DNA of 64,000 nucleotides from Alphaproteobacteria bacterium (GTDB lineage Bacteria > Pseudomonadota > Alphaproteobacteria > Rhodobacterales > Rhodobacteraceae). The notes under the pieces were generated by a model that searched no databases, was not told where the DNA came from, and saw only the letters and a list, made by a program, of their open reading frames with translations. Numbering within the stretch: position 1 is the stretch's first letter; each line of letters starts with the position of its first letter. A program made the translations under genes and the position numbers. The DNA lies in assembly GCA_030433335.1 (NCBI GenBank), contig JAUILL010000008.1, forward strand, positions 1 to 64,000, given 5' to 3'. Below are positions 13,959 to 29,476 of the stretch, piece by piece.

Positions 13959-14770
13959 TCGCGACATCCCGCATCGCCAAAGGCCTCGCTTTGACAGTGG
14001 CCATTGGTTTGCACAGCGCGGCACTCTTGGCATTGATCGCCCCAGCCCCGACCGTCCAAACCGAAGGTGCAGGCGGCGAGACCGAGCTGCAAATCGGCAG
14101 CAGCTTTGCCGATCTGGTCGAGGGTACCCTGACAGCGCAGCCCCCGGAAACGACCCAGCCATTGCAGACCACAACCGAGATAGCGGAAGCGATCACGCCT
14201 GAACCTGCCAAGCCCGTTCCACCCGCAGAGGCCGCGAAACCTGTGCCTGTAGTGACCGCTCCGATCGCCGCCCGAACGACGTCTGAAGTGGCTGCTCCTT
14301 CGGACCTGATCGCGGCCACGCCAGAGCAACCCAAACAATTCGCGGCGCTTCGTCCGCCCGAACGGCCCAAAGCTCCGGCTCCGAAGTCCACCCCAAAGAA
14401 GCCGATCGGGAATGCGACGCAAGCAGCCAAACGCGGTGCAGCAACCGGAACGGAAACTGCAAAAGCCGCGACGCGAGGCGCCGGCAAAACCGTCACTGCA
14501 GATGGGAGCGCCGCGGCTTCCAACTATCCCGGTCAGGTTATGCGCTGCATTAGTCGTGTGGGTCGGCCAAGAGTGCGCGCCCAAGGAGCCGCGCGGGTTG
14601 CCTTTGCAGTGTCCAGCTCAGGTGCGGTTACCGGTGTCACGCTTGCCCAATCCTCGGGCGTGGCGGCTTTGGACAAAGAAGCTTTAGCCCTGATCTCCCG
14701 CGCGGGCCCTTGTCCCGCGCCGCCAGCGGGGGCACAGCGCAGCTTTGCTATTCAGATCAAGGCACGCTGA
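13955..14770 (+). CDS. tonB: TonB energy transducer
   Basis: The 271-residue product has a single N-terminal membrane helix containing the His seen in TonB proteins (VAIGLHSAALLAL). A long Pro/Ala/Lys-rich region (about residues 55-185: PPET, PEPAKPVPP, PKAPAPK) spans the periplasm. The C-terminal TonB domain begins at NYPGQVMRCI and includes FAVSSSGAV, SSGVAALD and CPAPPA. It ends the operon. No outer-membrane receptor gene is in the window, so the cargo is unknown. The site between auxin and catechol genes may be coincidental. Confidence 0.9.
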   Translation: MIATSRIAKGLALTVAIGLHSAALLALIAPAPTVQTEGAGGETELQIGSSFADLVEGTLTAQPPETTQPLQTTTEIAEAITPEPAKPVPPAEAAKPVPVVTAPIAARTTSEVAAPSDLIAATPEQPKQFAALRPPERPKAPAPKSTPKKPIGNATQAAKRGAATGTETAKAATRGAGKTVTADGSAAASNYPGQVMRCISRVGRPRVRAQGAARVAFAVSSSGAVTGVTLAQSSGVAALDKEALALISRAGPCPAPPAGAQRSFAIQIKAR

Positions 14771-14914: not shown

Positions 14915-15415
14915 ATGCTGAAACGAGCCGGCCCGATCACCAAGATGACCGATGACACCCCCGAAGCCCCACCTCCGCACGAGGCCGAATTTCATAAGTC
15001 CGAGTGGCCGTTCTATTGGATTACCCAAACTTCCTCGCGGTACTTGCAGGTGCTCGAGGCCCGGCTGAAGCCCATCGGCGTGGATATCGCTTACTGGCGC
15101 GTTCTGATGTCCTTGTACGAGGACAACGCGCTCTCGGTGTCCGAGATTTCGAATTACTGCATCATCAAGCCTAATACGGCGACCAAGATCGTGCAGCGTA
15201 TGACCGTCGAAGGGTTGGTGGCCACGGGCACGCGCCCCTCGGACGGGCGCGTCACCGATGTCTTTCTGACCGACAGAGGCCACGAAATGCGGCGCAAAGC
15301 ACGGGCCATCGCAGAAGAGGTTTTTGCCAGTGCCTTTGCCGACCTGTCGAAAGAGGAGAAGATGATCCTGAACCTTCTTCTCCAGCGCGTTTTCAACGGG
15401 CTGGCAGAGGACTGA
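14915..15415 (+). CDS. iacR: MarR-family regulator, IacR candidate
   Basis: The product is 166 residues from ATG 14915, or 156 from ATG 14945. Neither start has a clear ribosome site. The winged helix covers about residues 50-125 (DNALSVSEISNYCIIKPNTA for the recognition region, then PSDGRVTDVFLTDRG for the wing). It converges on the far end of the auxin-degradation operon, 18 bases from the aldolase-like stop. Known iac clusters carry a MarR repressor, IacR, released by indole-3-acetate. This gene is the only MarR in the window and fits that role. Confidence 0.75.
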   Translation: MLKRAGPITKMTDDTPEAPPPHEAEFHKSEWPFYWITQTSSRYLQVLEARLKPIGVDIAYWRVLMSLYEDNALSVSEISNYCIIKPNTATKIVQRMTVEGLVATGTRPSDGRVTDVFLTDRGHEMRRKARAIAEEVFASAFADLSKEEKMILNLLLQRVFNGLAED

Positions 15416-15433: not shown

Positions 15434-16198
15434 TCACGCGTACTGGGGGCAGTCGCGCTTCATCTTGCGGACCATCGCATCGAACAAGAGAGTCGCAAAG
15501 GATGCGTTATCCTTCAGGTTCTCTGCGTCGCGGGCGCATTTTTCTTTGACCTCTTGCGGCAGGATGCTGTTCGGCCCGGGGATCGAGGACGCCGCACACT
15601 GGATTTCCGCCGCCCGCTGAACCGTCCACAGCAGCATGAAGGTCAGGGGAATGTCGGCCTCGGCCACGGCGATACCGTGGTTGCGCAGGACCAGAACGTG
15701 CTTGTCCCCCAGCGATTTCAACATGCGCTGGCGCTCGTCCGAGTAGATCGTGATCCCTTCGAAGGTGTGATAGGCCACGCGGCCATAGAGCTGAGCGCCG
15801 TAGAAGCTGTCGTGATCGATGTCGAAACCCTTCATGGTGATGGCCGACAGGGGAGTGGTGTGTGTGTGCGCCACGCAGCCCACATCGGGGCGGTTTTCGT
15901 GGATCACGCCGTGCAGGGCGAAACCGGCGGGGTTCGCGCCGTGGCCACCTTCGTCCAAGAGCTTGCCGTCCACGCCCACACGGATCAGGTTTTCAGGGGT
16001 GATTTCGTCGTAGTGCAGGCCAAAGGGGTTCACCAAGTAGGCGTGTTGTTCACCGGGCAGACGTACGGAGATGTGGTTAAAGATCAGCTCGGCCCAACCC
16101 AGATAGCTGACAAGGTGGTAAAAATCGGCCAGCTGCACGCGCAGGTCTGCTTCGGTAATGCCAGCCATCGGGTCCGCGATTTTGGTTGCAACGTTCAT
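15434..16198 (-). CDS. Class II aldolase/adducin-family protein
   Basis: The 254-residue product is a class II aldolase/adducin-fold protein. The zinc-binding pair is in HTHTTPLS, a further His is in LRNHGIAV, and the glycine-rich phosphate-loop region is in ELIFNHISVRLPG. Residues for sugar-phosphate binding are not obvious, so it may act as a decarboxylase or a lyase on a carboxylate. It is the last gene of the leftward run that begins with iacH and starts three bases after the reductase gene. It is not part of the iac gene set as I know it. Its place in the pathway is unknown. Confidence 0.8.
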   Translation of the reverse strand: MNVATKIADPMAGITEADLRVQLADFYHLVSYLGWAELIFNHISVRLPGEQHAYLVNPFGLHYDEITPENLIRVGVDGKLLDEGGHGANPAGFALHGVIHENRPDVGCVAHTHTTPLSAITMKGFDIDHDSFYGAQLYGRVAYHTFEGITIYSDERQRMLKSLGDKHVLVLRNHGIAVAEADIPLTFMLLWTVQRAAEIQCAASSIPGPNSILPQEVKEKCARDAENLKDNASFATLLFDAMVRKMKRDCPQYA

Positions 16199-16201
16199 CG
16201 G

Positions 16202-17197
16202 TTAAATCCTTTCCAGTACGGTATGTGTAAGATGTTTGGTCAAATTCTTGAGCACCGCGCCAGCGTCGGGCAGCGGCAAGGTGGGGGCGGCTTCCAACTC
16301 GGCCAGCAGGTTTGTCAGGCCGGTCATCGGCAGGCCCATTTGTGCGGCCATCGCCATGGGGGCGCGGCAGATCGCGTCCAGTTCCAGCGGGCGGCCCGCG
16401 CGGGCGTCCTGAAGCATCGAGGTTTCGAATTCCCCCGCGTCCAGGAGCAGATCTCCGAGCCACGCGTTTGGCGGCAGGTCATAGCCCATCGCCTTGGCCC
16501 AAGAGCGGAACCCGTCGGCGATGCCAAAGGCGATGGTGCGCAAGGCCTCGTTCCGCCCGATCTCCGCCAGCGAGCAGCCCACCAGAGCGGACAGGGGGTT
16601 GGTGGCCACATTGGCCAGTAGCTTAACCAGAACCTTGGTGCGGATGGTGTCGGTCACGTCAGTGCGAACGCCCGCCGCGTTCAGCGCCTGAACCAAGGGG
16701 CCAAGGTCCCCGCCCTGCCCTGCAGCCCGCCCCAGCGACAGCGTCGGCGTGTTCGAAGAGACAGCCACCCCGTCCGCACCGGTTTGCACAGTCATCAACA
16801 GGACCGCCCCCAGCACCCGTTCGCGGTTCAGGCGGGCCAGATCTCCGGTCGGGTCGGTGAACGGCGCAGGCTGGTCAAAGAACCAGAACGGCAACCCGTT
16901 CACCATCGGAATCACCCACGTGTCCGGCCCGATCCCCGCCGCATTGGCCGCCAGAGCCACGCCCAAATCCTGCGATTTCACGGTCACGAACACGGCGTCC
17001 ATCGGCTCGATCAGGGCAGTGACAGCCTGCACAGGCGCGCGGTGGATGGTGCCACGATCATCCAGCGCCACCCCTTCGGCGCGGATACGCTCCAGCCGCG
17101 CGCCACGGGCCACAACAGTCACATCCAGTCCGGCCGAAGCCAACAGCGCGGCCATGGCGGTGCCGATATTTCCGGCACCGATGATTGCTAGTCTCAT
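16202..17197 (-). CDS. 2-Dehydropantoate 2-reductase-like (ketopantoate reductase family)
   Basis: The 331-residue product has the N-terminal Rossmann motif GAGNIG (residues 7-12), followed by VVARGARL with an Arg that favours NADPH. The helical C-terminal domain of the PanE/ApbA family includes KLLANVATNPLSALVG. Pantothenate synthesis is unlikely here because it sits between the TRAP transporter and the aldolase-like gene in a catabolic operon. Reduction of a 2-keto acid arising from side-chain metabolism is a reasonable guess. The start is 15 bases after dctM. Confidence 0.75.
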   Translation of the reverse strand: MRLAIIGAGNIGTAMAALLASAGLDVTVVARGARLERIRAEGVALDDRGTIHRAPVQAVTALIEPMDAVFVTVKSQDLGVALAANAAGIGPDTWVIPMVNGLPFWFFDQPAPFTDPTGDLARLNRERVLGAVLLMTVQTGADGVAVSSNTPTLSLGRAAGQGGDLGPLVQALNAAGVRTDVTDTIRTKVLVKLLANVATNPLSALVGCSLAEIGRNEALRTIAFGIADGFRSWAKAMGYDLPPNAWLGDLLLDAGEFETSMLQDARAGRPLELDAICRAPMAMAAQMGLPMTGLTNLLAELEAAPTLPLPDAGAVLKNLTKHLTHTVLERI

Positions 17198-17212
17198 GAA
17201 ATCTCTCCGCTT

Positions 17213-18505
17213 TTATCCGGCCGTGTGCGCCAGCAGCAGGACCAACCCCGGCAAGGCCGTCAGCAGCCCGACCCGCAGCAGGTCCATCGCGACGAACGGC
17301 CCCAGCCCTTTGAAGATCGTGCCCAATCGCACATCCGGCACCACCGACCGCAGGACAAAGGCGTTCATGCCGACGGGGGGCGTGATGTAGGAAATCTCGG
17401 TGACCATGACCACGAAGATGCCGAACCAGATCAGGTCAAACCCTTGGGCCGCCACGATGGGATAGAACACCGGCACGGTCAGCATGATCATCGACAGGCT
17501 TTCCAGCACGCAGCCCAGAACCAGATAGATGCACAGGATCACCAGAATGGTCATCATCGGCGTGGCGCCAAAGGTGCTAAGGAAACTCTGGATGTCGTTC
17601 GTCATGCCCGACATATTGACGTAGTTGGTAAAGGTCAGCGCGCCGAACAGGATAAAGAACATCATGGCGGTGGTCTTCATCGTGTCGAGCAGCACCTGAA
17701 ACAGCCCCTCGATGGTAAAGCGGCCCGACAGAACGACCAGCAGCAGCGCGCCGCCCGCGCCCATGCCCGCGCTTTCGGTGGGGGTGAAGACGCCGAGGTA
17801 AATCCCGCCCATGACAAAGGCGAAGAGGATCAGCGCACCCAACGTGCCCTTCAGTGCCGCCAAACGGTCCCGCAGGGGCAGCTTGGGCTCGACCGGAAGG
17901 TCCAGACCCTGCCACTTGATCGAAATGCGCACGGCGATCGAATAGAACAGCACACCCAGCACACCGGGGATCAGCCCCGCAAGGAACAGCTTGCCGATGT
18001 CCTGCTGGGTCATGATGCCGTAGAACACCAGAATGACCGAGGGCGGGATCAGGATGCCAAGGGTGCCACCCGCCGCGATCGAGGCCGTGGACAGCTGGTC
18101 CGGATAGCCGAATTTCCGCATTGAGGGCAGCGCGATCCGAGTCATGGTCGCCGCCGTCGCCATCGACGAACCGCATACCGAACTGAATGCGCCGCAGGCG
18201 ATGACGGTGGCCGTGGCCAGCCCGCCTTTGCGGTGGCGCAGCCAGGCGTAGGCGGACTTGTACAGTTCTTCGGCGATGCCGGACTGGACCACAAAGTTCC
18301 CCATCATCAGGAACAGCGGCAGCACCGACAGGGAATAATCCCGGCCGTTGTCGAAAAACGCGGACCCCAGCAAAGACAGCGCCGGGGTCCACCCGATGAT
18401 CGAGGCCACCCCGACCAAGCCAACCCCCGCTAGCGACAGGGAAATCGGCACGCCGCAGAGCAACAGGCCCATGACGATCGCCATGCCAATTGGCCAGTGT
18501 TCCAT
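17213..18505 (-). CDS. dctM: TRAP transporter large membrane subunit
   Basis: ATG 18505 follows GGAG and lies two bases after the dctQ stop; the longer open frame to 18739 is only the shadow of dctQ. The 430-residue product has about 12 membrane segments with the DctM-type repeats (for example ATMTRIALPSMRKFGYP, IPPSVILVFYGI, TEISYITPPVG). It forms the sodium-coupled transport channel of a TRAP system. It lies in the same operon as iacCDEFG, so it probably imports the auxin or a related aromatic acid. Confidence 0.9.
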   Translation of the reverse strand: MEHWPIGMAIVMGLLLCGVPISLSLAGVGLVGVASIIGWTPALSLLGSAFFDNGRDYSLSVLPLFLMMGNFVVQSGIAEELYKSAYAWLRHRKGGLATATVIACGAFSSVCGSSMATAATMTRIALPSMRKFGYPDQLSTASIAAGGTLGILIPPSVILVFYGIMTQQDIGKLFLAGLIPGVLGVLFYSIAVRISIKWQGLDLPVEPKLPLRDRLAALKGTLGALILFAFVMGGIYLGVFTPTESAGMGAGGALLLVVLSGRFTIEGLFQVLLDTMKTTAMMFFILFGALTFTNYVNMSGMTNDIQSFLSTFGATPMMTILVILCIYLVLGCVLESLSMIMLTVPVFYPIVAAQGFDLIWFGIFVVMVTEISYITPPVGMNAFVLRSVVPDVRLGTIFKGLGPFVAMDLLRVGLLTALPGLVLLLAHTAG

Positions 18506-18507
18506 CG

Positions 18508-19050
18508 TTATTTCTCCGCTTTCAGCCAGAGGACCAGACGGCGCAGAGGCACCCAAGCCGTCAGAAGCGCGCCAGCAACCGTGCAGATCGCACAGAAATA
18601 CCCCAAGGGGGCAATCGGCAGCCCCAAGGTCTGCGAGGCCCCGCCATAGCTGGCGAACTGCGCCGCATAGACCCAGATCCGCCAAGCCACAATCAGCAGA
18701 ACCCCTGCCCCTGCAATGCCCGTGATCGCCAGCCGCCACGGGTGTATCCAGCGCGGCATGTGGTCAGTGATCAGATCGACCGTGACGTGTTCGTTGTCCA
18801 TTGAGACGGCAGGCAGTCCCAGAAAGATGGTCGCGGCCAGCAGCATCTCGGTCAGCTCTGCCGCACCGGGAAGCGGCGAATTGAACAGATAGCGCCCGAC
18901 CACATCCACCACGGTGATCCCCATCATGCTGAGCAGCAAAAGCCCCCCGATCACCGCCAAAATCGTGCGCGGCTTGGGGACCGAGATCCCCGCCGGCAGC
19001 ACTCTAGCTGCCGGCAGTTCTGATTGATGGAGAGAGGTGACAGGCTTCAT
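18508..19050 (-). CDS. dctQ: TRAP transporter small membrane subunit
   Basis: The 180-residue product has four membrane helices. These include the DctQ signature region between helices 1 and 2 (VDVVGRYLFNSPLPGAAELTE) and LGLPAVSMDNEHVTVDLI. The N-terminus is extended by about 30 polar residues. The gene overlaps dctP by four bases (ATGA) and is followed closely by dctM, so the three subunits are made together. Confidence 0.9.
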   Translation of the reverse strand: MKPVTSLHQSELPAARVLPAGISVPKPRTILAVIGGLLLLSMMGITVVDVVGRYLFNSPLPGAAELTEMLLAATIFLGLPAVSMDNEHVTVDLITDHMPRWIHPWRLAITGIAGAGVLLIVAWRIWVYAAQFASYGGASQTLGLPIAPLGYFCAICTVAGALLTAWVPLRRLVLWLKAEK

Positions 19051-20078
19051 TCGCCTGCGGCTTTCATTTCCGCGCTGGCGGCTTCGATTTCGGCCTTGAA
19101 CGCGGCATAGGCAGCGTCCGCATCAATGCCTGCCTCGGCGACCTCGGCCAGCTTGGCTTGGATCACGGGCGACAGCGCCTCTTCCCACGCGGCCAGTTGC
19201 ACGTCAGAGGCCGGAGTGATCGCGATCTCCCCATCCATTGCCGCCTTGCCCGCAGCGTCCGCGCGGTCCCACATTTGGCCAGCCATGCGGGCTAGTGCTT
19301 CGCCGGTGACGCTGTCGATCTGGGCTTGCTCTTCGGGGCTCAGGCTTTCCCATTTGGCTTTGTTCATCACCACGTAGAACGAGGTATTGTACAGGCCGCC
19401 GGGCACCGAGACGCCCACATCCAGCTGCGGGATCAGCTTGAAGAAGTTCACGGATTCATAGGGGAACAGGATGCCGTCCGCGACCCCTTGGCTGAGGAGT
19501 TCATAGGCCTTGGAGGACGGCCCCTCGACCGGAACGGCACCCAGTTCGGTGGCAACTGTGTGCACGATCCCGCCGCCCACACGCAGCTTCTGCCCCTTGA
19601 GCAGATCGACCGAGGACGGGTCCGCCGAGGTTTTCAGGAAAATCTCGCCGGGGCCGTGGGTAAAGACACCCAGCACCTTGACCTGATCATATTCACCCGC
19701 GCCCTTCAGGGTCTTGTCGAACATGCGCCAATACGCGACTGAGATCGCCTCGGCACTGTTCCCGAGGAAGGGCAGTTCGGCGAGGTTGGTGGTCTTGAAC
19801 CGGCCGGGACTGTAGCCCTGCACGCCGAATGTGATGTCCGCCACGCCGTTCACCGCGAAATCGAAATGGGCGGGGGGCGGCCCGAGGGGGGCGGGCAGGA
19901 TGCTGGCGGTCACTTCGCCGCCCGTTGCCTCAGCAATCGCTTCGGTCATGGGCACAATCACCTCGGACACCAGCGGGTGCGACGGTGGCAGCCAGTTCGC
20001 CACGGTCAGGGTGGTTTGCGCGCTGGCAGGCAGTGCGGCGGCAAGCGCCAGAAGGCTGGCAGAAATCAGTTTATTCAT
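19047..20078 (-). CDS. dctP: TRAP transporter substrate-binding protein
   Basis: The 343-residue product starts with a signal peptide (NKLISASLLALAAALPASAQ) and is a DctP-type periplasmic binding protein. WLPPSHPLVSE lies near the N-terminus. The conserved substrate-contact segment includes KLRVGGGIVHTVATELGA, where the usual Arg that binds a carboxylate is R170 or a neighbour. It starts 61 bases after iacG. A carboxylate ligand is expected for this family, and indole-3-acetate or a related aromatic acid would suit the operon. Confidence 0.85.
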   Translation of the reverse strand: MNKLISASLLALAAALPASAQTTLTVANWLPPSHPLVSEVIVPMTEAIAEATGGEVTASILPAPLGPPPAHFDFAVNGVADITFGVQGYSPGRFKTTNLAELPFLGNSAEAISVAYWRMFDKTLKGAGEYDQVKVLGVFTHGPGEIFLKTSADPSSVDLLKGQKLRVGGGIVHTVATELGAVPVEGPSSKAYELLSQGVADGILFPYESVNFFKLIPQLDVGVSVPGGLYNTSFYVVMNKAKWESLSPEEQAQIDSVTGEALARMAGQMWDRADAAGKAAMDGEIAITPASDVQLAAWEEALSPVIQAKLAEVAEAGIDADAAYAAFKAEIEAASAEMKAAGE

Positions 20079-20139
20079 AGTGCGTTTCCCTGTTTTAAAA
20101 TTTCCTGAGATGGATCTGCGCGCGGTTCTGCGCCGCGCT

Positions 20140-20634
20140 TCAGACAGCGATTTGAGGCAGATGGTGGAACTGGCGCCCGAACCACATCAGGCCCGAAGCG
20201 TCGCCCTCGGTCAGGGCGATATCCTCGACCTGACAGAAGAAAACCGAGTGGGTGCCGATGACCTCGCGGTTGATGATCCGGCAGTCAAAGGCGGCGACCG
20301 CATCGTCCAGAACGGGCGCTCCGGTGGCGCGGGTGGTCCAGCCGCCTTGGGCGAACCGGTCCCCATCGCATTGGCCTGCGAACTGGCCAGAAAGGTCACG
20401 GTGGCGCGGACCCAGAACGTTCACGCACAGCACCCCGTTCTGCACAAACAGATCGTGGCTGCGGTTGCGGGTGTTGACGCAGACCAGCAGCGTCGGCGGC
20501 GTATCGGTGACAGAGCACACAGCCGATGCGGTCATCCCGTGCCGCCCCGCCTGCCCGTCCGTGGTCAGGACGGTGACGGCGGCGCCCAAACGGCTCATGC
20601 CCTTGCGGAATAGGTTCTGCATGGCGGCCCCCAT
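20140..20634 (-). CDS. iacG: Flavin reductase, IacG-type
   Basis: ATG 20634 overlaps the iacF stop (TGATG); the longer frame to 20793 is a shadow of iacF. The 164-residue product belongs to the flavin-reductase (HpaC/DIM6) family: VTVLTTDG, GRHGMTASAVCSVT and PPTLLVCVN at the N-terminal half, and GTHSVFFCQVEDI near the end. It would supply reduced FMN or FAD to the monooxygenase IacA in the first step of indole-3-acetate oxidation. Confidence 0.85.
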   Translation of the reverse strand: MGAAMQNLFRKGMSRLGAAVTVLTTDGQAGRHGMTASAVCSVTDTPPTLLVCVNTRNRSHDLFVQNGVLCVNVLGPRHRDLSGQFAGQCDGDRFAQGGWTTRATGAPVLDDAVAAFDCRIINREVIGTHSVFFCQVEDIALTEGDASGLMWFGRQFHHLPQIAV

Positions 20635-21599
20635 CAGATGTCCAGCACCAGCCGGACCGAGCAAGCCCGCGAGCAGCAGGCGCAAATCATCTCGCTCTCT
20701 TCGCGTTCTTCCTCGGTCAGGAACTGGTCGCGGTGATCGATTTCGCCCTCGAGAACACCGGTCACGCAGGTGCCACAGATGCCTTCTTCGCATTTGACCT
20801 CGATCTTTACACCTTCGCGGGCCAAAGCCTTGGCGATGGTCTCGTCCGGCCCGACAGTCACAGTGATCCCAGATTGCGCCGCGACCACTTCGAATGTCTC
20901 GCCCGAGGCATCCACATCCGCGCTAAAATATTCGCGGTGCACATTTTTTTGACGGTGCCCGGCATTTTCTGCCGTCTGGATCACCCAGTCCATATATCCT
21001 GCGGGGCCGCAAACGTAGATGTGCGTACCGGCATCCGGTGCAGGCAGCGCCGCTTGCAAATCCAAGGGGGCCGAGTCGTCGTGATGCACCACAATCCGGT
21101 CCTTGAACGGGGCGGTTTCGATCAAATCGGCAAAGGCCATCCGGTCCGCCGAGCGGGTGCAATAATGCAGGGTGAACTCCGCGCCCTTGGCATGAAGTTC
21201 CCACGCCATCGCCAGCATCGGGGTCACGCCGATCCCGCCGCCGAACAGAACGGTCTTCTGCGCCGAATGGTCCAGCGCAAAGTGGTTGCGCGGCCCCTCA
21301 ACATGGACCTTTTCGCCCGCCTTCACCAATTGGTGCAGCGCGATTGATCCCCCTCGGCTGGCCGGATCGCGCAGGATACCCAAGCGCCAAGCCGAGCGGT
21401 CCGTGGGATCTCCGGCCAGCGAATACTGGCGCCAAAGCGGGCCTTCGGGGGTGTCTACCAACAGGTCGATGTGCGCGCCTGCGGTGACCTCGGGCAGCGG
21501 GCCGTCGGCGGTCAGGGTCAGGCGCATGATGTCGCCGCGATCGTCCAGCCGTTCGGCAACGGTCAGGACTAAGGGCGTGGTGTCGTGCATGTCCTTCAT
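20634..21599 (-). CDS. iacF: Oxygenase reductase with C-terminal [2Fe-2S] domain, IacF-type
   Basis: The 321-residue product has the phthalate-dioxygenase-reductase order. A flavin domain comes first (RQYSLAG, about residue 58). An NAD domain follows (GGIGVTPMLAMA, CGPAGYM). The C-terminal plant-type ferredoxin domain has CEEGICGTC plus a last Cys in CACCSRAC. It passes electrons from NADH to the Rieske oxygenase encoded upstream (IacCD). It starts three bases after iacE. VanB- and PobB-type reductases share this architecture; the neighbours decide the name. Confidence 0.9.
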   Translation of the reverse strand: MKDMHDTTPLVLTVAERLDDRGDIMRLTLTADGPLPEVTAGAHIDLLVDTPEGPLWRQYSLAGDPTDRSAWRLGILRDPASRGGSIALHQLVKAGEKVHVEGPRNHFALDHSAQKTVLFGGGIGVTPMLAMAWELHAKGAEFTLHYCTRSADRMAFADLIETAPFKDRIVVHHDDSAPLDLQAALPAPDAGTHIYVCGPAGYMDWVIQTAENAGHRQKNVHREYFSADVDASGETFEVVAAQSGITVTVGPDETIAKALAREGVKIEVKCEEGICGTCVTGVLEGEIDHRDQFLTEEEREESEMICACCSRACSVRLVLDI

Positions 21600-21602
21600 G
21601 GC

Positions 21603-22364
21603 TTACCTCATGTACAGGCCGCCGTTCACGTCCCAGCAGGCGCCAGTGGTGAAACCGGCGTCGGGGGCGCACAGCATGGCCACCATTTTCGCAACAAATT
21701 CAGGGCGTCCGAGCTGCCCCACGGGGATACCGGCCAAGAAGCCTTCCATCCGGTCCTCGGGGACGATCCCGTGCACCATGGGCGTGTCCATCGGACCGGG
21801 CGAAATCGCGTTCACCGTCACGCCAAAGGGGGCCAGATCGCGGGCAAAGACCTTGGTTAATGTCAGGATTGCTCCCTTGGAGGCCGCGTAGTGCGCCCCC
21901 GTGGCCGTTCCGCCGTTCTGCCCCGCAAGGCTGGCCATGTTCACGATACGGCCATAGCCGCGTTCCTTGAAATGGCGGCCAAAGGTCTGGCATCCGGCGA
22001 AACACCCGCCCGCGTTCACGGCCATGACGGTGTTGAACTCGGCCGGGTCAATCTCCAGCACGGGGCGGGCCTGGGTCATGGCGGCGTTGTTCACCAGAAC
22101 TTCGGCGCTGCCCCAGCGGTCGATCACCTTGTCCAGAACGGTCTGGAAATCGGCGGGGTTGGCCACGTCCAGCGTCGCCGTCACAGCCGTTTCCCCCGCC
22201 AGATCCAGCTCCGAGGCCAGCGCGCCAGCCGCCTCCTGATCCAGATCGGTGATCACCACGCGAAAGCCTGCGGCGTGCAAGGCACGGGTGGCGATGGCGC
22301 CAAAACCCTTGGCGCCCCCCGTGATCACGGCCGTCTGGATAACATCCGGCAACGGCGCCCCCAT
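21603..22364 (-). CDS. iacE: Short-chain dehydrogenase, IacE-type
   Basis: The 253-residue product is a classical SDR with TGGAKGFG (residues 15-22), Asp at the end of strand 2 (ITDLD, so NAD(H) is preferred), NNAA, and the Tyr-Lys pair in HYAASKG. The start overlaps the stop of iacD (TGATG). In the iac pathway an SDR works early, on hydroxylated indole-acetate intermediates. A cis-diol dehydrogenase role after the Rieske step would also fit by family. Confidence 0.85.
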   Translation of the reverse strand: MGAPLPDVIQTAVITGGAKGFGAIATRALHAAGFRVVITDLDQEAAGALASELDLAGETAVTATLDVANPADFQTVLDKVIDRWGSAEVLVNNAAMTQARPVLEIDPAEFNTVMAVNAGGCFAGCQTFGRHFKERGYGRIVNMASLAGQNGGTATGAHYAASKGAILTLTKVFARDLAPFGVTVNAISPGPMDTPMVHGIVPEDRMEGFLAGIPVGQLGRPEFVAKMVAMLCAPDAGFTTGACWDVNGGLYMR

Positions 22365-22858
22365 CAGAACAGATAGCTGATCGAGGTCAGCATCCCATCG
22401 CTGTTCAGAAGGCGGATGATCTTGTCATGGATCTTCAGGCCCTCTTCGGTTTGCTCCAGCTTCCATGTGACGTTCATGGCAAAGCTGCGCTGGCGGCCGA
22501 ACTTGTCCTCCGTGACGTGCTGCGCGGCGCGGACGGTGATCAGGCTGCCTTCGACGCTGTCGATTACGATGCGCGAAACCGTACGCACGGATTCCGCCGG
22601 CGGCGCGGCCGAGATCGAGAAACCACCCTGCAACCGCTTGACCCGCATGTCGCGCATCAGGGCGTTGTCATAGGCGATGTTCAGGGTGTTGGCGAAATCG
22701 TCGCCCTGCTTGTCCACGGGGATCACGTAGTGGCCCGATCCGGTCCACAGTTGCAGCCACTGGTCGTATTCCTTGGCGTCCAGCAGGTCCGCTTCCATCC
22801 ACAGGAATTCGGTGATCGCGGCCAGATTTACGTCGGTTTGCGCAGGGAAATCTTTCAT
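22364..22858 (-). CDS. iacD: Ring-hydroxylating dioxygenase small (beta) subunit, IacD-type
   Basis: ATG 22858 overlaps the stop of iacC (ATGA) and is preferred over the longer frame. The 164-residue product has the cone-shaped NTF2-like fold of RHO beta subunits: FLWMEADLLDAKEYDQWLQL at the start and FGRQRSFAMNVTWKLEQ later. It has no cofactor and is structural in the alpha3beta3 oxygenase. Pairing with iacC and location within the full iac set support the name. Confidence 0.9.
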   Translation of the reverse strand: MKDFPAQTDVNLAAITEFLWMEADLLDAKEYDQWLQLWTGSGHYVIPVDKQGDDFANTLNIAYDNALMRDMRVKRLQGGFSISAAPPAESVRTVSRIVIDSVEGSLITVRAAQHVTEDKFGRQRSFAMNVTWKLEQTEEGLKIHDKIIRLLNSDGMLTSISYLF

Positions 22859-24129
22859 TGTTCCATCACCTTCTTCCACATTTTATAGGCAGAGCGCATG
22901 CCGGTCTCGGCGCTGATGTCGCCTACGGGCAGGCCATTGTCCGATGCCTTTTCCAGACCCAGACCACGGTTCACCATGACGTCGATATCCTCGCCACCAC
23001 CGGCAGAACCGCGCTGGACGCGTTCCCACACTTCGGCATCATCGGGCGAGCCAAAGCCCATCGGCCCTTGGAAGTGCTCGTGAATGCGCATCCGCATCTG
23101 GTTTGCTGCCGCAGGGCCACCGTCCATGCCGATCGCGATGTGGCGGATTTCGGTTTCGTGCACCGACACGGGGCGCAGAATGCGGAAGAACGACAGCGAA
23201 CACGCCGCATTCGGGAAGAGGTTCAGGTTGAACCCGCAGCCCCCCACAGCGCGGACCAAGCGGCGCACCTGCGCCTCGTCGTAGTCCTTGCGCAGGTCTT
23301 CGGCCAATTCAGCGAACCGCTCGGGGATCGGAGCGCCGTCGTCGTTATCCAGATCAATGAATTCGGGCATCATCACCATGACCGAGTGGCCATTCCCAAG
23401 GTCTTCGACATAGCCGTCATCGTCGTCCATGAAGCTGAACGTCTCGGTCGCCTCGCCATCAAGAGATTGCAGGAAACTCTTGTGAACAATGGGGAAATGG
23501 TAGGCGTCAGTGGTGTTCTCCAACTGGATTTTCCAGTTCATCGGCACCTTGAACTGATGCTCGCCCAAGGTTTTGACCGGATAGCCGCCGCCCTGCTTCA
23601 TGAACAGTTTGATCCACGGCTTGGCGTTGCCAAGGAAGTCCTCCAGCGGCTCCACATCCATGTTGTAGGATGCAAAGATCATCCCTTCGAAGATGCCGAC
23701 TTTCAGTTGCTTCAGGCCGAACTCTTTCTTATCGAAGTCGGTGTTGTAACCCTTGGTGTAGGGGATCGCGCGCAGCTCGCCGTTCAGGGCATAGCCCCAG
23801 CCGTGATAGGGGCACTGGAAGGACGAGGTCTTGCCCTTCTTGATCTCGCACACGGTCGCGGCGCGGTGGCGGCAGCGGTTTACCAGAACGTGGATTTCCC
23901 CCTTGCGGTCGCGGGAAATGATCACCGGCTGCAGGCCCACATGGCTGAGTTTGAAGCTGCCCTTGTCCGGCACTTCGGATGTGTGGCCGACCCAGACCCA
24001 GACCTTGCCAAAGATCTTTTCCATCTCTTCGTTGAACAGCGCGGGGTCTTCGTACATCGGGGTTTTCACGCGGTCGTTCAGCACCAGATCATCGGTGCCG
24101 ATGCCGCCGGGGGTTTGGTCAAGAGACAT
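22855..24129 (-). CDS. iacC: Rieske ring-hydroxylating dioxygenase large (alpha) subunit, IacC-type
   Basis: The 424-residue product has the Rieske cluster ligands C86-x-H88 (CRHRA) and C106-x2-H109 (CPYHGW). The mononuclear iron site is D208-x2-H211-x4-H216 (DAYHFPIVH), where D208 also bridges electron transfer between subunits. Length and motifs match benzoate/anthranilate/salicylate-type oxygenases, and IacC belongs to that group. It would hydroxylate an aromatic intermediate so that catechol is released at the end of the auxin pathway. It starts 17 bases after iacI, with iacD and iacF close behind to complete the enzyme. Confidence 0.9.
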   Translation of the reverse strand: MSLDQTPGGIGTDDLVLNDRVKTPMYEDPALFNEEMEKIFGKVWVWVGHTSEVPDKGSFKLSHVGLQPVIISRDRKGEIHVLVNRCRHRAATVCEIKKGKTSSFQCPYHGWGYALNGELRAIPYTKGYNTDFDKKEFGLKQLKVGIFEGMIFASYNMDVEPLEDFLGNAKPWIKLFMKQGGGYPVKTLGEHQFKVPMNWKIQLENTTDAYHFPIVHKSFLQSLDGEATETFSFMDDDDGYVEDLGNGHSVMVMMPEFIDLDNDDGAPIPERFAELAEDLRKDYDEAQVRRLVRAVGGCGFNLNLFPNAACSLSFFRILRPVSVHETEIRHIAIGMDGGPAAANQMRMRIHEHFQGPMGFGSPDDAEVWERVQRGSAGGGEDIDVMVNRGLGLEKASDNGLPVGDISAETGMRSAYKMWKKVMEQ

Positions 24130-24146
24130 CGGTTTGTCCTATTGGT

Positions 24147-24683
24147 TCAGTCCGCAGCCACAGGCGCAGACGGGGTTGGAGCGGGAATTTGCACGGGTTG
24201 GTTCCAGTCGGACACGGACCGCGCATAAAGGTTTCGGGTGGTAAAGCGGTGCATCCGCCACGCGCCGTCTTGACGGGCAAAGGTGATCACCAGCCGCGCC
24301 GCCATCACAAAGGATTGCCCATCGTGAAAGGTCGGCGTTTGCAGCATGATCCAGCGTCCGGTCTTGGTGCCGTCCGCGTTGTGGGACAGCGCCTCTGCGG
24401 TCAGGAAATGCGCGTTCATGGCGAAATGCGGGGGCGTGGTGCAGAAGCCCGCCATCCAGTCTATGATCGCCTGACGGCCACGGTGCGCGCCAAAGTCGGC
24501 CTCGTACCGCTCACCGGCACCGGACCAGATGGCGTCCGTGGTGAACAGCGCCCCAAGCGCGGTCAGGTCCGTGTCCGCATCCAGCCGGTCGCAAATGTCC
24601 ATGTAATCGGACAGGCAGCGGCGGCAGGCGGCTTCGGCCTCTAGGGCGTCCAGACGGGACAGGATGGCGGTCAGATCACTCAC
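24147..24683 (-). CDS. iacI: SnoaL/NTF2-like protein, IacI-type
   Basis: GTG 24683 overlaps the stop of iacB (GTGA); the extra 35 codons of the longer frame are a shadow of iacB. The 178-residue product is an NTF2-like (SnoaL) cone: YMDICDRLDADTDLTALGALF, WSGAGERYEADFGAHRG, FARQDGAWRMHRF. Such proteins act as isomerases or small hydrolases, or resemble oxygenase beta subunits. IacI in the described auxin cluster is a small protein of this kind with no settled activity. Confidence 0.75.
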   Translation of the reverse strand: MSDLTAILSRLDALEAEAACRRCLSDYMDICDRLDADTDLTALGALFTTDAIWSGAGERYEADFGAHRGRQAIIDWMAGFCTTPPHFAMNAHFLTAEALSHNADGTKTGRWIMLQTPTFHDGQSFVMAARLVITFARQDGAWRMHRFTTRNLYARSVSDWNQPVQIPAPTPSAPVAAD

Positions 24684-25045
24684 AGCGCGGGAATCTCCAG
24701 CGCGCGGCCCATACGGGCCTCGATCCGCATGTAGCGCCACAGGCGGTGGTTTTCCTCGCCGACTTCGATGGTGCGGAACAGGTTGCACGCGGCCTTGACG
24801 GCCTCACGATCTGGGAAGTCGCACAGCATGTAGCAGGTCCAAGGGAAGCCGGTAGGCGACGTGCCGACCATGGTTTCGTCATCGTCAATGGTGCCCAGAA
24901 CGGTCACGCCCTCGGTCGCGGCGACGGTGCCCATAAAGGTCGAGAACCCCTTCCACACCATACCGATCTGGTCGAACGGCAGGTCAAAGAAATTCTGCTG
25001 GACCGCGATGCACAGAAGCGTGCGCAAAGGTTTGGTATCACTCAT
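24680..25045 (-). CDS. iacB: Small conserved protein, IacB-type
   Basis: The 121-residue product has no catalytic motif that I can name. It is probably a ferredoxin-like alpha/beta barrel (LRTLLCIAVQQNF strand, later FPDREAVKAACNLF helix, and the conserved end RLWRYMRIEARMGRALEI). It sits between iacA and iacI, where the described auxin cluster carries a small gene, iacB. By fold it could be a small isomerase or a muconolactone-isomerase-like protein, but this cannot be decided from sequence alone. Confidence 0.7.
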   Translation of the reverse strand: MSDTKPLRTLLCIAVQQNFFDLPFDQIGMVWKGFSTFMGTVAATEGVTVLGTIDDDETMVGTSPTGFPWTCYMLCDFPDREAVKAACNLFRTIEVGEENHRLWRYMRIEARMGRALEIPAL

Positions 25046-25085
25046 TATTCTATTCCTTCGGGTGTATTTGGTGTGAGCGGCAAAA

Positions 25086-26237
25086 TCAGGGGAAACCGGG
25101 GGGCGTGCGTTCGCCGAACATGGCAGCGCCAGCGGCGGTCCACGTCCCCTCGCCCATAAAGGCGTGCTGCGCGACGCAGGCCGCGTCGATCATCAAACGC
25201 CCCAAGGGGTGCCCCGTCATCATCGCGTTCGATCCCCCCATGACAAAGGCATCGCGGGCCACAGCGGCCCCTTCGTGGGCGGCGGCGGTGGCGGCGAGAC
25301 GAAGGCGCACATGGGTGTCGGGGGTGACGCTGGAGTTGTGCTTCAGCTCCTCCCACGCGCGGGCGGTGGCGTCGAAGAATTGGGCGCGCACACCGGCAAG
25401 GCGGCTTTCGGCGCGCGCCAGCATGGACTGGAAGTTCGGGCGGGCGCCGGGGTTCGGCGCACCGGTGATCGACGCCCGCTGCGCAGCATCCGACCGGATG
25501 TAATCCAGCGCCTCACGCGCGGTTCCGAGCGCAACCACGGCCAACACTTGCGCGGCCAAAGCCATCGCGGGATAACGGAAAATCGCATCCTCCATCGCGG
25601 ATCGCGACCCGCGAACAAAGGTCATTTCGTCGGGCACCAGCACTTTATCGGCGACCAGATCGTGGCTTCCGGTGCCGCGCAGGCCGATGGTGTCCCACGT
25701 TTCGTCAATGGTGATCGCGGCGCGAGGCATGACGGCGGTGCGCGGCAGCGGGGACCCCTCGCCCTCTAGCTTGATGCCGCCCCCCAGCAGGTCCGCGCCC
25801 ATGGAGCCAGAGCACCACGGCCAGCGGCCCGTTACCTCAATCCCGCCAGCCACGCGGGTGGCGTCTTGGGGCGGGAACAGGCCGCCCGCGAACACGGTGT
25901 CGGGGTTGGCGCTGTAGATCGCCGCGAAGCTATCGGTCGGCAACGCCGCCAAATAGGTCGATGAGACCCCGAAACTGGCCACCCACCCTGCCGAAGCATC
26001 CGCCGCCGCGATAGTCTCAATCAGCGCCAGAAAGTCCATCGGGCTGATTGCATCCCCGCCAAACCGCTGGGGCACAAAGGCGCGGTACACGCCGACCTTC
26101 TTGAACCCGTCCACGATGTCCTGCGGAATGTGCCGCAGCTGGTCGAATTCGGCACGGCGGGAACGGATCGTATCAAGCAGTTGCGCCATCTCGGCGCTTT
26201 GGGCGTTGCGCGTGGCAACCGGTTCGGGATGGGTCAT
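25086..26237 (-). CDS. iacA: Flavin-dependent monooxygenase of the acyl-CoA dehydrogenase fold, IacA-type
   Basis: ATG 26237 overlaps the amidase stop (ATGA). The 383-residue product has the group D monooxygenase (acyl-CoA dehydrogenase/HsaA-like) arrangement. An N-terminal helical domain contains FVPQRFGGD. The middle beta domain has VTGRWPWCSGS and WDTIGLRGTGSHD. The C-terminal four-helix bundle ends near MGGSNAMMTGHPLGR. There is no catalytic Glu for acyl-CoA oxidation in the usual place. IacA starts indole-3-acetate breakdown by oxygenating the indole ring with reduced flavin from IacG, and both genes are in this operon. Confidence 0.85.
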   Translation of the reverse strand: MTHPEPVATRNAQSAEMAQLLDTIRSRRAEFDQLRHIPQDIVDGFKKVGVYRAFVPQRFGGDAISPMDFLALIETIAAADASAGWVASFGVSSTYLAALPTDSFAAIYSANPDTVFAGGLFPPQDATRVAGGIEVTGRWPWCSGSMGADLLGGGIKLEGEGSPLPRTAVMPRAAITIDETWDTIGLRGTGSHDLVADKVLVPDEMTFVRGSRSAMEDAIFRYPAMALAAQVLAVVALGTAREALDYIRSDAAQRASITGAPNPGARPNFQSMLARAESRLAGVRAQFFDATARAWEELKHNSSVTPDTHVRLRLAATAAAHEGAAVARDAFVMGGSNAMMTGHPLGRLMIDAACVAQHAFMGEGTWTAAGAAMFGERTPPGFP

Positions 26238-27379
26238 CCAATCATCTCCACAAAAGGTTCGGTGGTGAGCTGGCGCTCTAGAAATTCGGCGATGGCACAG
26301 AGGCGAGCTTCTTCGCCCTTGCGGCCCACCAGTTGCAGGCCAGCGGGCAGTCCGGCGGCGGTGCGCAGGGGCACGGTCAGCGCGGGGTGGCCCGACAGGT
26401 TGAAGGGGCGCACCAGCTTGGTCAGGGGAATAATCGCGGCGGGGTCTTGGGCCTGATCCCAAGTGGGCGGGACGCAAGGCATGGTCGGCAGCACCAGGGC
26501 ATCAAGGCCGGTCAGGGCGTTATCAACCTCTTCGGTAAACTGGGTGCGGACCTGTTCGGCCTCGGCCGCCATTTCGGGTGTGACGGTAAGGGCGTTCAGC
26601 AGGCGGGCGCGCACATCGGGCCCCAGGGTCGCATTCGACCGCGCCAGATGCCCAAATTCGCCTCCCAGTTCATAGTTGATCAAGGTGATGCCCGCTTTGA
26701 ACGCAGCCTCCAGCCCGTCCAGCGGGGTGACCGTTTTCCAGCGGGGCGATAGGACGCCATCGACCGCCGCGATGATGTCCGCGTCCACTTGGACCGGCAC
26801 GCAGCCCAGTTTGGGGGCGTCGATCTGAACCGGCGTGAACCCGTCCAGCAGCATCTCGGCGGCGCGGGTCAGCATCTCGGCGCTGGCGGCGAAGGGGCCG
26901 ATAACGTCCAGAGAGGACGCACGTGGAATGGCACCCCGGCGACTGATCGCATTTTGGGTCGGCTTCAGGCCATAGATCCCGCAGCAGCACGCGGGCTGGC
27001 GGATCGACCCGCCGGTGTCGGTGCCGATCGCGAAATCACACAGACCCGCCGCCACTGCCGCCGCCGACCCTGAGGATGAGCCCCCCGGAATGCGGTCCGG
27101 CCACAGCGGGTTCGGGGCGGTTCCGGCATAGGCATTGGCCCCCGTTACCCCGAACGCCAGCTCGTGCATGGTAGTGGTTCCGTTGATGCGCGCGCCCCCC
27201 GCAATCAGGCGTGCCACCACGTCGGAGTGCTCTGCCTCCACCGGCGCTTCCGCAAAGGCCGCACTCCCGCAGCGGGTCGGCAAGCCTTTGACCCCAAGGC
27301 ATTCCTTGATCAGAACCCTGAGCCCCTCTGCCGCTCCGAGCGCTAGTCGAATTGTAATGATCTCGGAGTGCTGGACCAT
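26234..27379 (-). CDS. iacH: Amidase signature enzyme, IacH-type
   Basis: The 381-residue product has the amidase-signature triad: K25 (LIKECLG), cis-Ser S101 in [10 protein letters not shown], and S125 in [11 protein letters not shown]. The N-terminus is short: the Lys usually lies near residue 70. It heads the leftward operon and overlaps iacA by four bases. In the auxin pathway IacH is thought to open an amide formed after ring oxidation. It may also release indole-3-acetate from conjugates. The promoter region upstream carries unusual AT-rich repeats. Confidence 0.8.
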
Positions 27380-27401
27380 GACGTGCCTCGCTGTGTCGAT
27401 T

Positions 27402-27472
27402 TATGTGAATATTACGACAACCGCGGACCACGCCTAGATTATTCCCGGTACTTTTCACGTAATTTCACGCAA
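27402..27472. promoter_or_regulatory. Repeat cluster at the iacH promoter
   Basis: TATGTGAATATTAC starts at 27402. Two decamers, TTTCACGTAA and TTTCACGCAA, run head to tail from 27453 with a period of exactly one helical turn. Read on the operon strand the decamers are TTGCGTGAAA and TTACGTGAAA. The ATGTGAA of the first element is nearly the reverse complement of TTTCACGT, so the sites may be half-sites of one regulator, possibly IacR. Confidence 0.4.
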
Positions 27473-27789: not shown

Positions 27790-28833
27790 TCAGAAAAGCT
27801 CGAAGGTCAGGTCTTCGTCACTCTCTTTCCACTGGCTATCACCAACATGGCCGCTTTCCATGTGCACGCGGCGCTGAGAGTACATCACGTATTTCTGCGA
27901 GAGTTTTCCGATCAGATCGTCCACGCCCGCGCAGATATCCGCGTTCAAATCTGTGTCTTTGATGAAGTTGCTCATTTCTTGCAGCATCTCATCAATGGTT
28001 TCTGCCTGCTGCCGGATGACGTCCCCGCTTTGGGCACAGGACATGGCCGAACGGATCGAGCCTTCGATTTCAGACTGGGTCGCTTTGTTCTCTGCCTGCT
28101 GCTGAACCGTGAGATCCAGCAAGTCAGAATAACTGACGGTCATTTCGGACAGGTTCGCCCGAGCCGTATCCAGTGTGGCCTCTTGGTCCGTCAGACTTTC
28201 GAGGATATCCTCGCGATCGTCGGATCCGTCGGACTCCATGGTGGACGCGTGTGCGTTGATCTCTTTCAGCGCATTCTGCACCAACGGCGCAAGACGCTGG
28301 GTCACGCTCTCTGTTTCCGACGCCAGGCGGCGGACTTCGGAGGAAATCACGGTGAATTCCCGCCCGGCCTTGCCTGCCCGCGCCGAGGCAATCGAGGCGT
28401 TGATCGCGATCATCTTGATCTCGCGGCTGAAATTCTCGACCTCGCGCAATTCTTGGCGCATCGCCTCGATAGAGGTTGCAATCGCCCGCATGGACTGGCG
28501 TGCGGCTTCGATTTCTTCACGGACAAACTTGTTGACGTCCACAGCCCGCTGGAGGTCAGCTTCGAGCGCTTTGCGGTCTTCTTGGTGATCATGAATGGCT
28601 GTTTCCAAACCACCCAGATGATCAATGGCCGTTTCGGACTTCTTGCGCTCGTCCTGCAAGCGCTCTTCGATACTCATGAGGTGGGTCATGAAGTTGATCG
28701 AACAGTCATTGGTCTCGTGCACGATGTTCTTTGTCAGATCGCTGAGAAGATCGACAAAGCGTGGCAGATGTTCCCCATAAGATTGATTTTGGGCTTCCAT
28801 CTTGTCCAAGTTGAATGAGTGTCCGGAATCCAT
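27790..28833 (-). CDS. MCP-like cytoplasmic protein with a CheZ-like DxxxQ motif
   Basis: ATG 28833 has AGAGGT just upstream; the GTG at 28839 overlaps that site. The 347-residue product is almost all helical and has no membrane segment. Residues about 140-175 resemble a degenerate chemoreceptor hairpin tip (IKMIAINASIASARAGKAGREF). Further on, the segment SGDVIRQQAETIDEML near residue 275 carries D-x3-Q, the spacing of the CheZ phosphatase residues. It is the last gene of the chemotaxis operon, directly after a CheY. A role in dephosphorylating CheY, or as a scaffold, is therefore worth testing. Neither is proven. Confidence 0.6.
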   Translation of the reverse strand: MDSGHSFNLDKMEAQNQSYGEHLPRFVDLLSDLTKNIVHETNDCSINFMTHLMSIEERLQDERKKSETAIDHLGGLETAIHDHQEDRKALEADLQRAVDVNKFVREEIEAARQSMRAIATSIEAMRQELREVENFSREIKMIAINASIASARAGKAGREFTVISSEVRRLASETESVTQRLAPLVQNALKEINAHASTMESDGSDDREDILESLTDQEATLDTARANLSEMTVSYSDLLDLTVQQQAENKATQSEIEGSIRSAMSCAQSGDVIRQQAETIDEMLQEMSNFIKDTDLNADICAGVDDLIGKLSQKYVMYSQRRVHMESGHVGDSQWKESDEDLTFELF

Positions 28834-28848
28834 GACCACCTCTTACTT

Positions 28849-29220
28849 TTAACCGTTGGGAAGCAGCTTCTGGAGGGCTGTTTCCAGCTGCTTGTGATCA
28901 ACGGGTTTGGTTAACCAGCCGGTCGCACCGGCCTTTTTTGCCTGATCACGGCGGTCCTGCTGGGAGTCCGTGGTCAGTACGAGCATTGGCGTAAACCGGT
29001 GCGCGGGATGCTGGCGCAGGAAGCCGATCAGCTCGATCCCGTTCTTGCCGGGCATGTGCAAATCGGTGATCACCATCTTGGGCTCTTCGCCTGCGCGTAG
29101 TTTTTCGACCGCCTCTTCTGCTGTGCTCGCCTTGACGACGGTATGGCCGAACCGCTGGAGCAGGCTTTCCATGCTCATCAGGACGGTTGGGCTGTCATCG
29201 ACGATCATAACATGTGCCAT
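28849..29220 (-). CDS. cheY: CheY-like single-domain response regulator (second in the operon)
   Basis: ATG 29220 gives 123 residues and lies ten bases after AAGGAG; ATG 29229 is only one base from it. The receiver domain has the acidic pair DD (residues 8-9, MIVDDSP), the phospho-acceptor D53 (ITDLHMPG), T82 or its neighbour in LVLTTDSQ, and the Lys in LTKPVDHK. There is no output domain. It lies one base after the STAS-like gene and 15 bases before the DxxxQ MCP-like gene, so it may be the partner of that protein. Confidence 0.9.
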   Translation of the reverse strand: MAHVMIVDDSPTVLMSMESLLQRFGHTVVKASTAEEAVEKLRAGEEPKMVITDLHMPGKNGIELIGFLRQHPAHRFTPMLVLTTDSQQDRRDQAKKAGATGWLTKPVDHKQLETALQKLLPNG

Positions 29221-29221
29221 G

Positions 29222-29476
29222 TTAGGCATTCTCCTTGGCGTAATACTCTCGACCGGATGTCAGATACTGACGCCAGTCCTCTGTCCCTTCTGCACCGGCA
29301 ACCGTCGCGCCTGTTGCAATCAGCAACTGTACAACAGCCGTGTGCGCACCCGTGCAGTCACTTACATCAACGGCAGAGGTCGGGTTTTGTTGTAGCCAAG
29401 GATGAAGAATATCGACATCTGTGATATCGATATATCCTTCGAGTAGAGCGCAATCGTCGTTCAGTGATATTGGCAT
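29222..29476 (-). CDS. STAS-like small protein
   Basis: ATG 29476, with GGGAG eight bases upstream, lies inside the end of cheA (16-base overlap). The 84-residue product fits a STAS domain: alternating strands and helices with VDVSDCTGAHTAVVQLLIATGATV, where the Ser in the DVSDCTG loop corresponds to the phosphorylatable position of SpoIIAA-like proteins. STAS proteins next to CheA occur in some alphaproteobacterial clusters as possible phosphate sinks or switch partners. Family assignment is moderate. Confidence 0.6.
   Translation of the reverse strand: MPISLNDDCALLEGYIDITDVDILHPWLQQNPTSAVDVSDCTGAHTAVVQLLIATGATVAGAEGTEDWRQYLTSGREYYAKENA

Follow-up and report, generated by a model that had tools for sequence, protein, structure and literature searches.

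The 64,000-nucleotide stretch of DNA analysed here (the window; positions 1 to 64,000 of contig JAUILL010000008.1, assembly GCA_030433335.1) comes from an alphaproteobacterium of the family Rhodobacteraceae and carries a run of 14 genes on its minus strand, from 27379 to 15434. We consider it likely that this run is an iac-like operon for the catabolism of the auxin indole-3-acetate (IAA), extended into a tripartite ATP-independent periplasmic (TRAP) importer and two accessory enzymes and governed by a regulator of the IacR type. The genes follow the order iacH-A-B-I-C-D-E-F-G, dctP, dctQ, dctM, a panE-like gene and a class II aldolase-like gene (ald), with gaps of -4 to +61 bp; the pairs iacH/A, B/I, C/D, D/E, F/G and dctP/Q overlap. 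A MarR regulator gene stands just beyond the run and is convergent with it. An earlier note on this DNA had given the same gene list, order and place, the tight packing with overlapping start and stop codons and the continuation into dctPQM and the ketopantoate-reductase-like and aldolase-like genes, all of which were found as described. The genes are as follows.

iacH: 26234..27379, minus strand; amidase, 381 aa; PF01425
iacA: 25086..26237, minus strand; flavin monooxygenase of the acyl-CoA-dehydrogenase fold, 383 aa; PF08028/PF02771
iacB: 24680..25045, minus strand; small protein, 121 aa; no Pfam or NCBIfam match
iacI: 24147..24683, minus strand; SnoaL-like protein, 178 aa, GTG start at 24683; PF13577
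iacC: 22855..24129, minus strand; Rieske oxygenase alpha subunit, 424 aa; PF00355, PF00848
iacD: 22364..22858, minus strand; Rieske oxygenase beta subunit, 164 aa; PF00866
iacE: 21603..22364, minus strand; short-chain dehydrogenase, 253 aa; PF13561
iacF: 20634..21599, minus strand; [2Fe-2S] oxygenase reductase, 321 aa; PF00111, PF00175
iacG: 20140..20634, minus strand; flavin reductase, 164 aa; PF01613
dctP: 19047..20078, minus strand; TRAP substrate-binding protein, 343 aa, TarP-like aromatic-acid group; PF03480
dctQ: 18508..19050, minus strand; TRAP small membrane subunit; PF04290
dctM: 17213..18505, minus strand; TRAP large membrane subunit, start better placed at ATG 18505; PF06808; NCBIfam dctM above cut-off
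panE-like: 16202..17197, minus strand; ketopantoate-reductase family, 331 aa; PF02558, PF08546; apbA_panE above subfamily cut-off
ald: 15434..16198, minus strand; class II aldolase/adducin family, 254 aa; PF00596; PRK07044 above cut-off
iacR: 14945..15415, plus strand; MarR regulator, ATG at 14945 (longer frame from 14915); PDB matches to IacR

Pfam results were concordant with every named gene except IacB, which matches no family. All three subunits of the TRAP transporter, DctPQM, are present and contiguous. A scan for promoters and terminators returned 3 promoter-like sites against 2.9 expected and 13 terminator-like sites against 11.1 expected.

Judged by sequence, the enzymes form a true iac-like set, and the assignment made in the earlier note is upheld by marker genes, regulator type, lack of iad-marker matches and shared gene order. 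The genes iacA, iacB and iacI, which serve as markers of the iac type (PMC9613470), are all present, and the adjacent iacC and iacD are of the iac class. When plasmids were searched by tblastn using the Rieske alpha subunit as query, the matches formed two classes, at 53-86% and at 37% identity or less, with none between among the 40 records listed of 383; loci of the upper class, from Acinetobacter, Klebsiella, Azospirillum, Shinella, Sagittula, Martelella, Gemmobacter and Thioclava, also hold other iac genes. The Klebsiella plasmid locus has an identical gene order, and its third gene, annotated 'IacB protein', is matched by the window's iacB at 51% identity. Outside Donghicola, iacA is 41-79% identical to IacA of other iac loci and iacE 48-89% identical to IacE elsewhere, and iacH reaches 42-53% in iac loci outside Rhodobacterales and 64-91% in the TRAP-linked loci L009-L011. 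The best NCBIfam model for iacA is HsaA, at a score far under the HsaA cut-off; HsaA/HpaB-type systems and anthranilate/benzoate dioxygenase systems were rejected as identities for the set, since all fell far under their NCBIfam cut-offs. The iad-type pathway was likewise rejected, because queries for its IorA/IorB-like and cyclase proteins (from locus L007) had no tblastn match in the window at E 1e-5; identity between iacC and an iad-type Rieske alpha subunit is 27%.

The MarR protein, by sequence, belongs to the IacR group, and its candidacy as IacR, put forward in the earlier note, is borne out by the PDB search. The IAA-contacting tyrosine of IacR seems to be conserved, its placement depending on an assumed tag length, and it carries no weight in this assignment. 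The three top PDB matches are 7kua, 7l19 and 7l1i (E 8e-30, 4e-29 and 9e-17; next match 1e-9), templates from Pseudomonas putida, Enterobacter soli and Acinetobacter baumannii (PMC11630574) whose proteins are described as IacR (PMC9613470).

The known iac operons of P. putida 1290, A. baumannii and E. soli hold the same nine enzymes and an IacR-type MarR protein, and the A. baumannii and Klebsiella plasmid loci share the order H-A-B-I-C-D-E-F-G with the window. Compared with these operons, the window adds dctPQM, the panE-like gene and ald, and its regulator stands at the far 3' end in convergent orientation.

The association between this transporter and auxin genes recurs beyond the window. 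It was assessed in a sample of 390 genomes of the order, which included the window's own genome and was not selected for a TRAP link. The iacC gene was found in 11 of the 390, and nine of these carried a DctP relative no more than 10 kb from iacC (8/10 without the window's genome), at gaps of 2,780-3,404 bp; the genomes without the link were G255 and G205. Co-occurrence of iacC and DctP at genome level had a p-value of 1.3e-10. DctP relatives of at least 46% identity occurred in 24 genomes, nine beside iac genes, seven beside iad-type Rieske genes and eight beside neither. Weaker relatives (38-42%) also adjoin iad loci, and when these are counted 18 of 28 iad loci, in 27 genomes, hold a DctP relative within 10 kb. 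The link of the TRAP system to iac is not due to chance, and a chance TRAP neighbour was accordingly rejected on the 9/11 linkage in this sample.

For the wider comparison, 84 DctP-family loci were named, namely the best 80 of 122 and four plasmid loci, some of them cut by contig ends; all five members of the query alignment adjoin iac or iad, a bias from which the 390-genome sample is free. Genes in high-GC loci were called with codon weighting. Among the 84, 36 lie beside iac, 10 beside iad, one beside part of iac and 37 beside neither. The Pfam families of 20 neighbours of unlinked dctP loci revealed no common pathway. Gene arrangement varies within the linked loci: dctPQM follows iacG directly (window, Thioclava), follows iacG and a marR gene (Martelella AD-3), stands in a divergent form (L014) or precedes iacH (L155, L156). 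Both panE and ald are present in 22/36 iac-linked, 5/37 unlinked and 0/10 iad-linked loci, placed either after dctM or ahead of iacH (L036, L048, L051). The term 'marine-type' auxin use, applied in the earlier note, is only partly right, since some Hyphomicrobiales (Martelella, Ciceribacter, Stappia) carry the link too. The DctP tree, obtained by a quick search, did not support one common origin for the iac link (13 label changes, a weak root at 36%, several long branches), and no count of gains was drawn from it.

Several loci hold part of the set. L046 and L049 combine IacR and TRAP genes with iacA, B, E and G, to which L049 adds an iacF-like gene, and neither has a match to the Rieske oxygenase; in L032 and L035 iacG is the only iac gene, again with IacR and TRAP. 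In these loci the transformation of IAA may go no further than dioxindole-acetate, or the sets may be decaying. The Klebsiella pneumoniae plasmid locus (L159) holds nine iac genes and a MarR gene on a conjugative IncF plasmid with no TRAP match; major facilitator superfamily genes and an IS3 transposase lie downstream.

A palindrome-like box, TTACGGTAATATTCACGTAAA, would connect the importer to the regulator. In the 64-kb window only three sites score 13 bits or more, all of them upstream of iacH.

27400..27420, minus strand; candidate IacR operator, 20 bp upstream of the iacH start codon; 27.1 bits
27443..27463, plus strand; second, weaker operator-like site; 16.1 bits
27673..27693, minus strand; third operator-like site, far upstream, with GTAATATTCACATA common to the first site; 23.8 bits

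The core pattern GTAANNTTCAYRTAA was found once in the whole 4.23-Mb genome, at 27401-27415. Of 37 loci, 35 have a box scoring at least 18 bits in the 150 bp that precede iacH. The scoring model was trained on iacH upstream regions only, so that the tested iacH loci lie within the training set, which also includes the near-copies L047/L052. In leave-one-out scoring against single-base shuffles, 35/37 loci exceeded the shuffles' 95th percentile of 7.7 bits, with a median of 27 bits and a shuffle maximum of 17.3. The two loci short of 18 bits were L008 (A. baumannii, 10.6 bits) and L059, where the start is misplaced and a 28.6-bit site is present. Over 2.48 Mb of loci, both strands included, 125 matches reached 18 bits, compared with none in 60 shuffled loci.

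The box also precedes dctP or panE in seven loci that stand apart from iac (L013, L023, L042, L053, L055, L069, L075). It was found at such unlinked copies in 7 of 10 genomes with iacC elsewhere and in 0 of 28 without iacC (Fisher p 9.5e-6, a value that overstates independence because the seven boxed loci fall into three lineages); among the 28 iacC-lacking genomes a single weaker site, at 17.7 bits, occurs in L046, which has iacA, B, E and G. The box precedes panE in L036, L023 and L042. Where marR and dctP are divergent, it lies between them at 18 bits in L044, L049 and L073, and at that threshold no box was found between them in L019, L028, L048, L072 and L074. No box was present in any of the 17 iad-linked loci scanned. 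With this model the A. baumannii and Klebsiella loci have no site over 15.0 bits, and the two best sites of the Klebsiella locus (15.0 and 14.8 bits) stand roughly 100 bp ahead of its iacH. An operator for IacR is not new as such, one having been called 'previously identified' (PMC8242030); the box itself did not turn up in a search of open-licence papers. IacR would be the protein that binds it. Because the box stands before unlinked dctP and panE genes in iac-carrying genomes, the importer and the two extra enzymes probably belong to the IacR regulon.

The binding protein itself was examined through a predicted model with a mean pLDDT (predicted local distance difference test) of 92.9. Its nearest PDB sequences are 4p56, 7nr2, 5i5p, 5iga and 7nsw. 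The top 15 fold matches have Z scores of 34.4-42.2 (next 30.4), the best being 4p56 at 42.2, and 11 of the 15 are named as aromatic-acid or TarP proteins (Z 34-39). The matches include a protein from a marine metagenome described as 'specific for aromatic acid ligands'. The TarP matches carry coumarate, cinnamate, caffeate, ferulate or 4-hydroxyphenylacetate; the ligand of 4p56 we take to be mandelate and that of 4pgp, presumably, IAA. The conserved carboxylate-binding arginine of TRAP binding proteins is present as R166, which is invariant across 22 aligned sequences; each of the five solved relatives shown has an arginine at the aligned position. On this model, DctP is placed in the TarP-type fold and sequence group. 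It shares fold, group and arginine with the TarPQM system of Rhodopseudomonas palustris (PMC3610893), and differs from it in identity (27-33% to solved TarP proteins) and in context, which here is auxin and not coumarate. Another of the top 15 matches is DDE_0634 of Oleidesulfovibrio alaskensis (Z 36.7), a TRAP binding protein reported to have IAA among its ligands (PMC9973260). The aromatic-acid fold neighbours, the reported IAA binding of DDE_0634 and R166 therefore make IAA a plausible ligand beside other aromatic acids, and together with the gene context suggest that DctP probably carries IAA or a near relative.

In the proposed mechanism, IacR would repress the operon at the box upstream of iacH and be released upon binding IAA. 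In the periplasm, IAA or a close indolic or aryl acid would be captured by DctP, whose R166 would bind the carboxylate; DctQM would then move the substrate across the inner membrane. IacA, with IacG, would oxidise IAA, IacE would then yield dioxindole-3-acetate, and IacC, D and F, possibly with IacI, would convert this to catechol. IacH may release IAA from an amide or cleave an amide formed later. The PanE-like and aldolase-like enzymes, as members of the regulon, would probably act on a 2-oxo or 2-hydroxy acid, either a product of the IAA side chain or an indole-pyruvate or indole-lactate precursor serving as a source of IAA. The iac chemistry and the repression by IacR are taken from other strains (PMC9613470, PMC7225977).

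Several observations weigh against this account. Where a ligand is named for the nearest solved proteins, it is an aromatic acid other than IAA, and identity to DDE_0634 is low, at 24%. Eight of the 24 DctP relatives in the unselected sample and 37 of the 84 named loci adjoin neither pathway, and 27 of 38 genomes with an unlinked or part-linked copy carry neither oxygenase; a rule that this DctP always means auxin was rejected on the 37/84 count. L040, L067 and L070 have no box even with iacC elsewhere in the genome, and the boxed unlinked loci represent just the three lineages mentioned above. No DctP, DctQ or DctM match was found in 20-25 kb stretches of eight fetched iac loci (Acinetobacter, Klebsiella, Caballeronia, Rhodococcus, Novosphingobium, Rhizobium, Azospirillum, Shinella), and iac therefore does not need a TRAP system. 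A search of the window's genome, which is 89% complete, gave no muconolactone isomerase (PF02426), an enzyme of the catechol route, and five of six other carriers likewise gave none.

Part of this evidence would suit a division of labour, in which the enzymes are iac and the TRAP-PanE-aldolase part handles another aromatic or 2-hydroxy acid (mandelate-, phenyl-lactate- or coumarate-like), the two being joined as the same algal or plant exudate supplies both. In its favour are the likeness of DctP to 4p56 and to those TarP proteins whose ligand is coumarate, cinnamate, caffeate or ferulate, the nanomolar dissociation constants of R. palustris TarP for cinnamic acids (PMC3610893), the 37 loci without iac or iad alongside and the five of these with panE and ald near dctP. 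It has to account for a DctP family that adjoins two different IAA pathways, for a box that marks unlinked copies only in iacC-carrying genomes (plus the 17.7-bit site in the part-iac L046), and for L036, L048 and L051, where panE and ald stand at the iac operon's opposite end. We regard this division as unlikely, while giving it more weight than the two further alternatives. A main substrate other than IAA, namely another indole or aryl acid such as indole-3-propionate, indole-lactate, skatole or indole, finds support in the broad acceptance of indole derivatives by IacA and IacE of Caballeronia glathei (PMC7225977); with a regulator in the IAA-binding IacR group, and the same nine-gene set as in loci whose action on IAA has been demonstrated in other strains, it appears quite improbable. 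A chance fusion that placed the TRAP genes in the run with no IAA link would fit the eight TRAP-less iac loci of other groups, and is very hard to reconcile with the 9/11 linkage in a sample not chosen for it and with at least four gene arrangements that preserve the link; we give it the least credence of all. An IAA-catabolic operon with its own importer and accessory enzymes, under IacR, thus stays our preferred reading.

A wider proposal is held more tentatively, at somewhat less than even confidence: that marine Rhodobacterales possess a dedicated auxin TRAP family joined to iac and to iad, that IacR, through the TTACGGTAATATTCACGTAAA box, also controls the importer and the PanE-like and aldolase-like genes even apart from iac, and that the whole unit is a travelling cassette. 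Comparison with Donghicola mangrovi bears on the last part. Synteny with D. mangrovi covers positions 63998-47157 of the window, where identity is 84.7-87.6%, and extends in weaker form, at 70%, as far as 45009; in the D. mangrovi sequence used for the comparison (L009 and one contig end) no match lies beyond this point. A block bounded by the start codons of iacH and the MarR gene (27379-14944) aligns over 12,440 bp at 93.2% identity with a different D. mangrovi contig, and homology stops at these two outer start codons; the iacH promoters differ in sequence, with the box kept in both. GC content is 63.0% in the iac-TRAP-iacR block versus 59% in its flanks. The high identity on another contig and the difference in GC are therefore consistent with a block that moved as a whole unit. 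Chemotaxis-type genes at 27790-35593 adjoin the auxin operon; the best D. mangrovi match of the cheA-like gene covers only 106 bp at 76%.

On the other side of the operon, a ring-cleavage cluster at 11906-7602 encodes an intradiol dioxygenase, a 129-aa protein, an alpha/beta hydrolase and a LysR regulator, together with a muconate cycloisomerase that scores 390 bits with TIGR02534 (cut-off 335). The 129-aa open reading frame (9365-9754) has no Pfam family. For pcaF no gene above cut-off was found in the window's genome, nor in 14 control genomes. The operon had earlier been called complete, which stands for the set leading from IAA to catechol and is limited to it because the full catechol route was not found. 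Genes for ExbB, two ExbD and TonB proteins lie at 12534-14770, between the ring-cleavage genes and iacR. In the Sagittula and Gemmobacter plasmid loci, maleylacetate reductase and intradiol dioxygenase genes lie upstream of iac (L004, 3237-5167; L006, 3536-5462) and perhaps provide a hydroxyquinol route in place of the catechol route.

Both the iac and iad types, with IacR and IadR, have been described (PMC9613470). Among marine bacteria, a Marinomonas with iac genes uses IAA (PMC11373566), Ruegeria pomeroyi degrades IAA and carries an iad-type regulator (PMC9613470), and for a marine Sulfitobacter the IAA uptake system was stated in 2025 to be yet to be confirmed (PMC12114110). In our searches of the open-licence literature we found no description of a TRAP system in an auxin locus or of an auxin uptake system in marine bacteria, and these searches did not contradict the statement in the earlier note that described iac clusters lack a TRAP system. 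The sole binding protein found tied to an aerobic auxin-degradation locus is IadK2, an IAA-specific ATP-binding cassette (ABC) binding protein of rhizosphere Variovorax (PMC10374108). That iad locus likewise combines auxin degradation genes with a periplasmic binding protein likely serving uptake; it differs in a pathway leading to anthranilate and in a transporter of the ABC and not the TRAP type, the binding protein of the window's operon being a PF03480 DctP.

Algae and their bacteria exchange auxin, and a TRAP importer tied to auxin genes offers a specific protein for ligand tests. The candidate operator could be used to build reporters of auxin sensing in roseobacters, and poorly understood steps around the iac pathway gain two candidate enzymes in the PanE-like and aldolase-like proteins.

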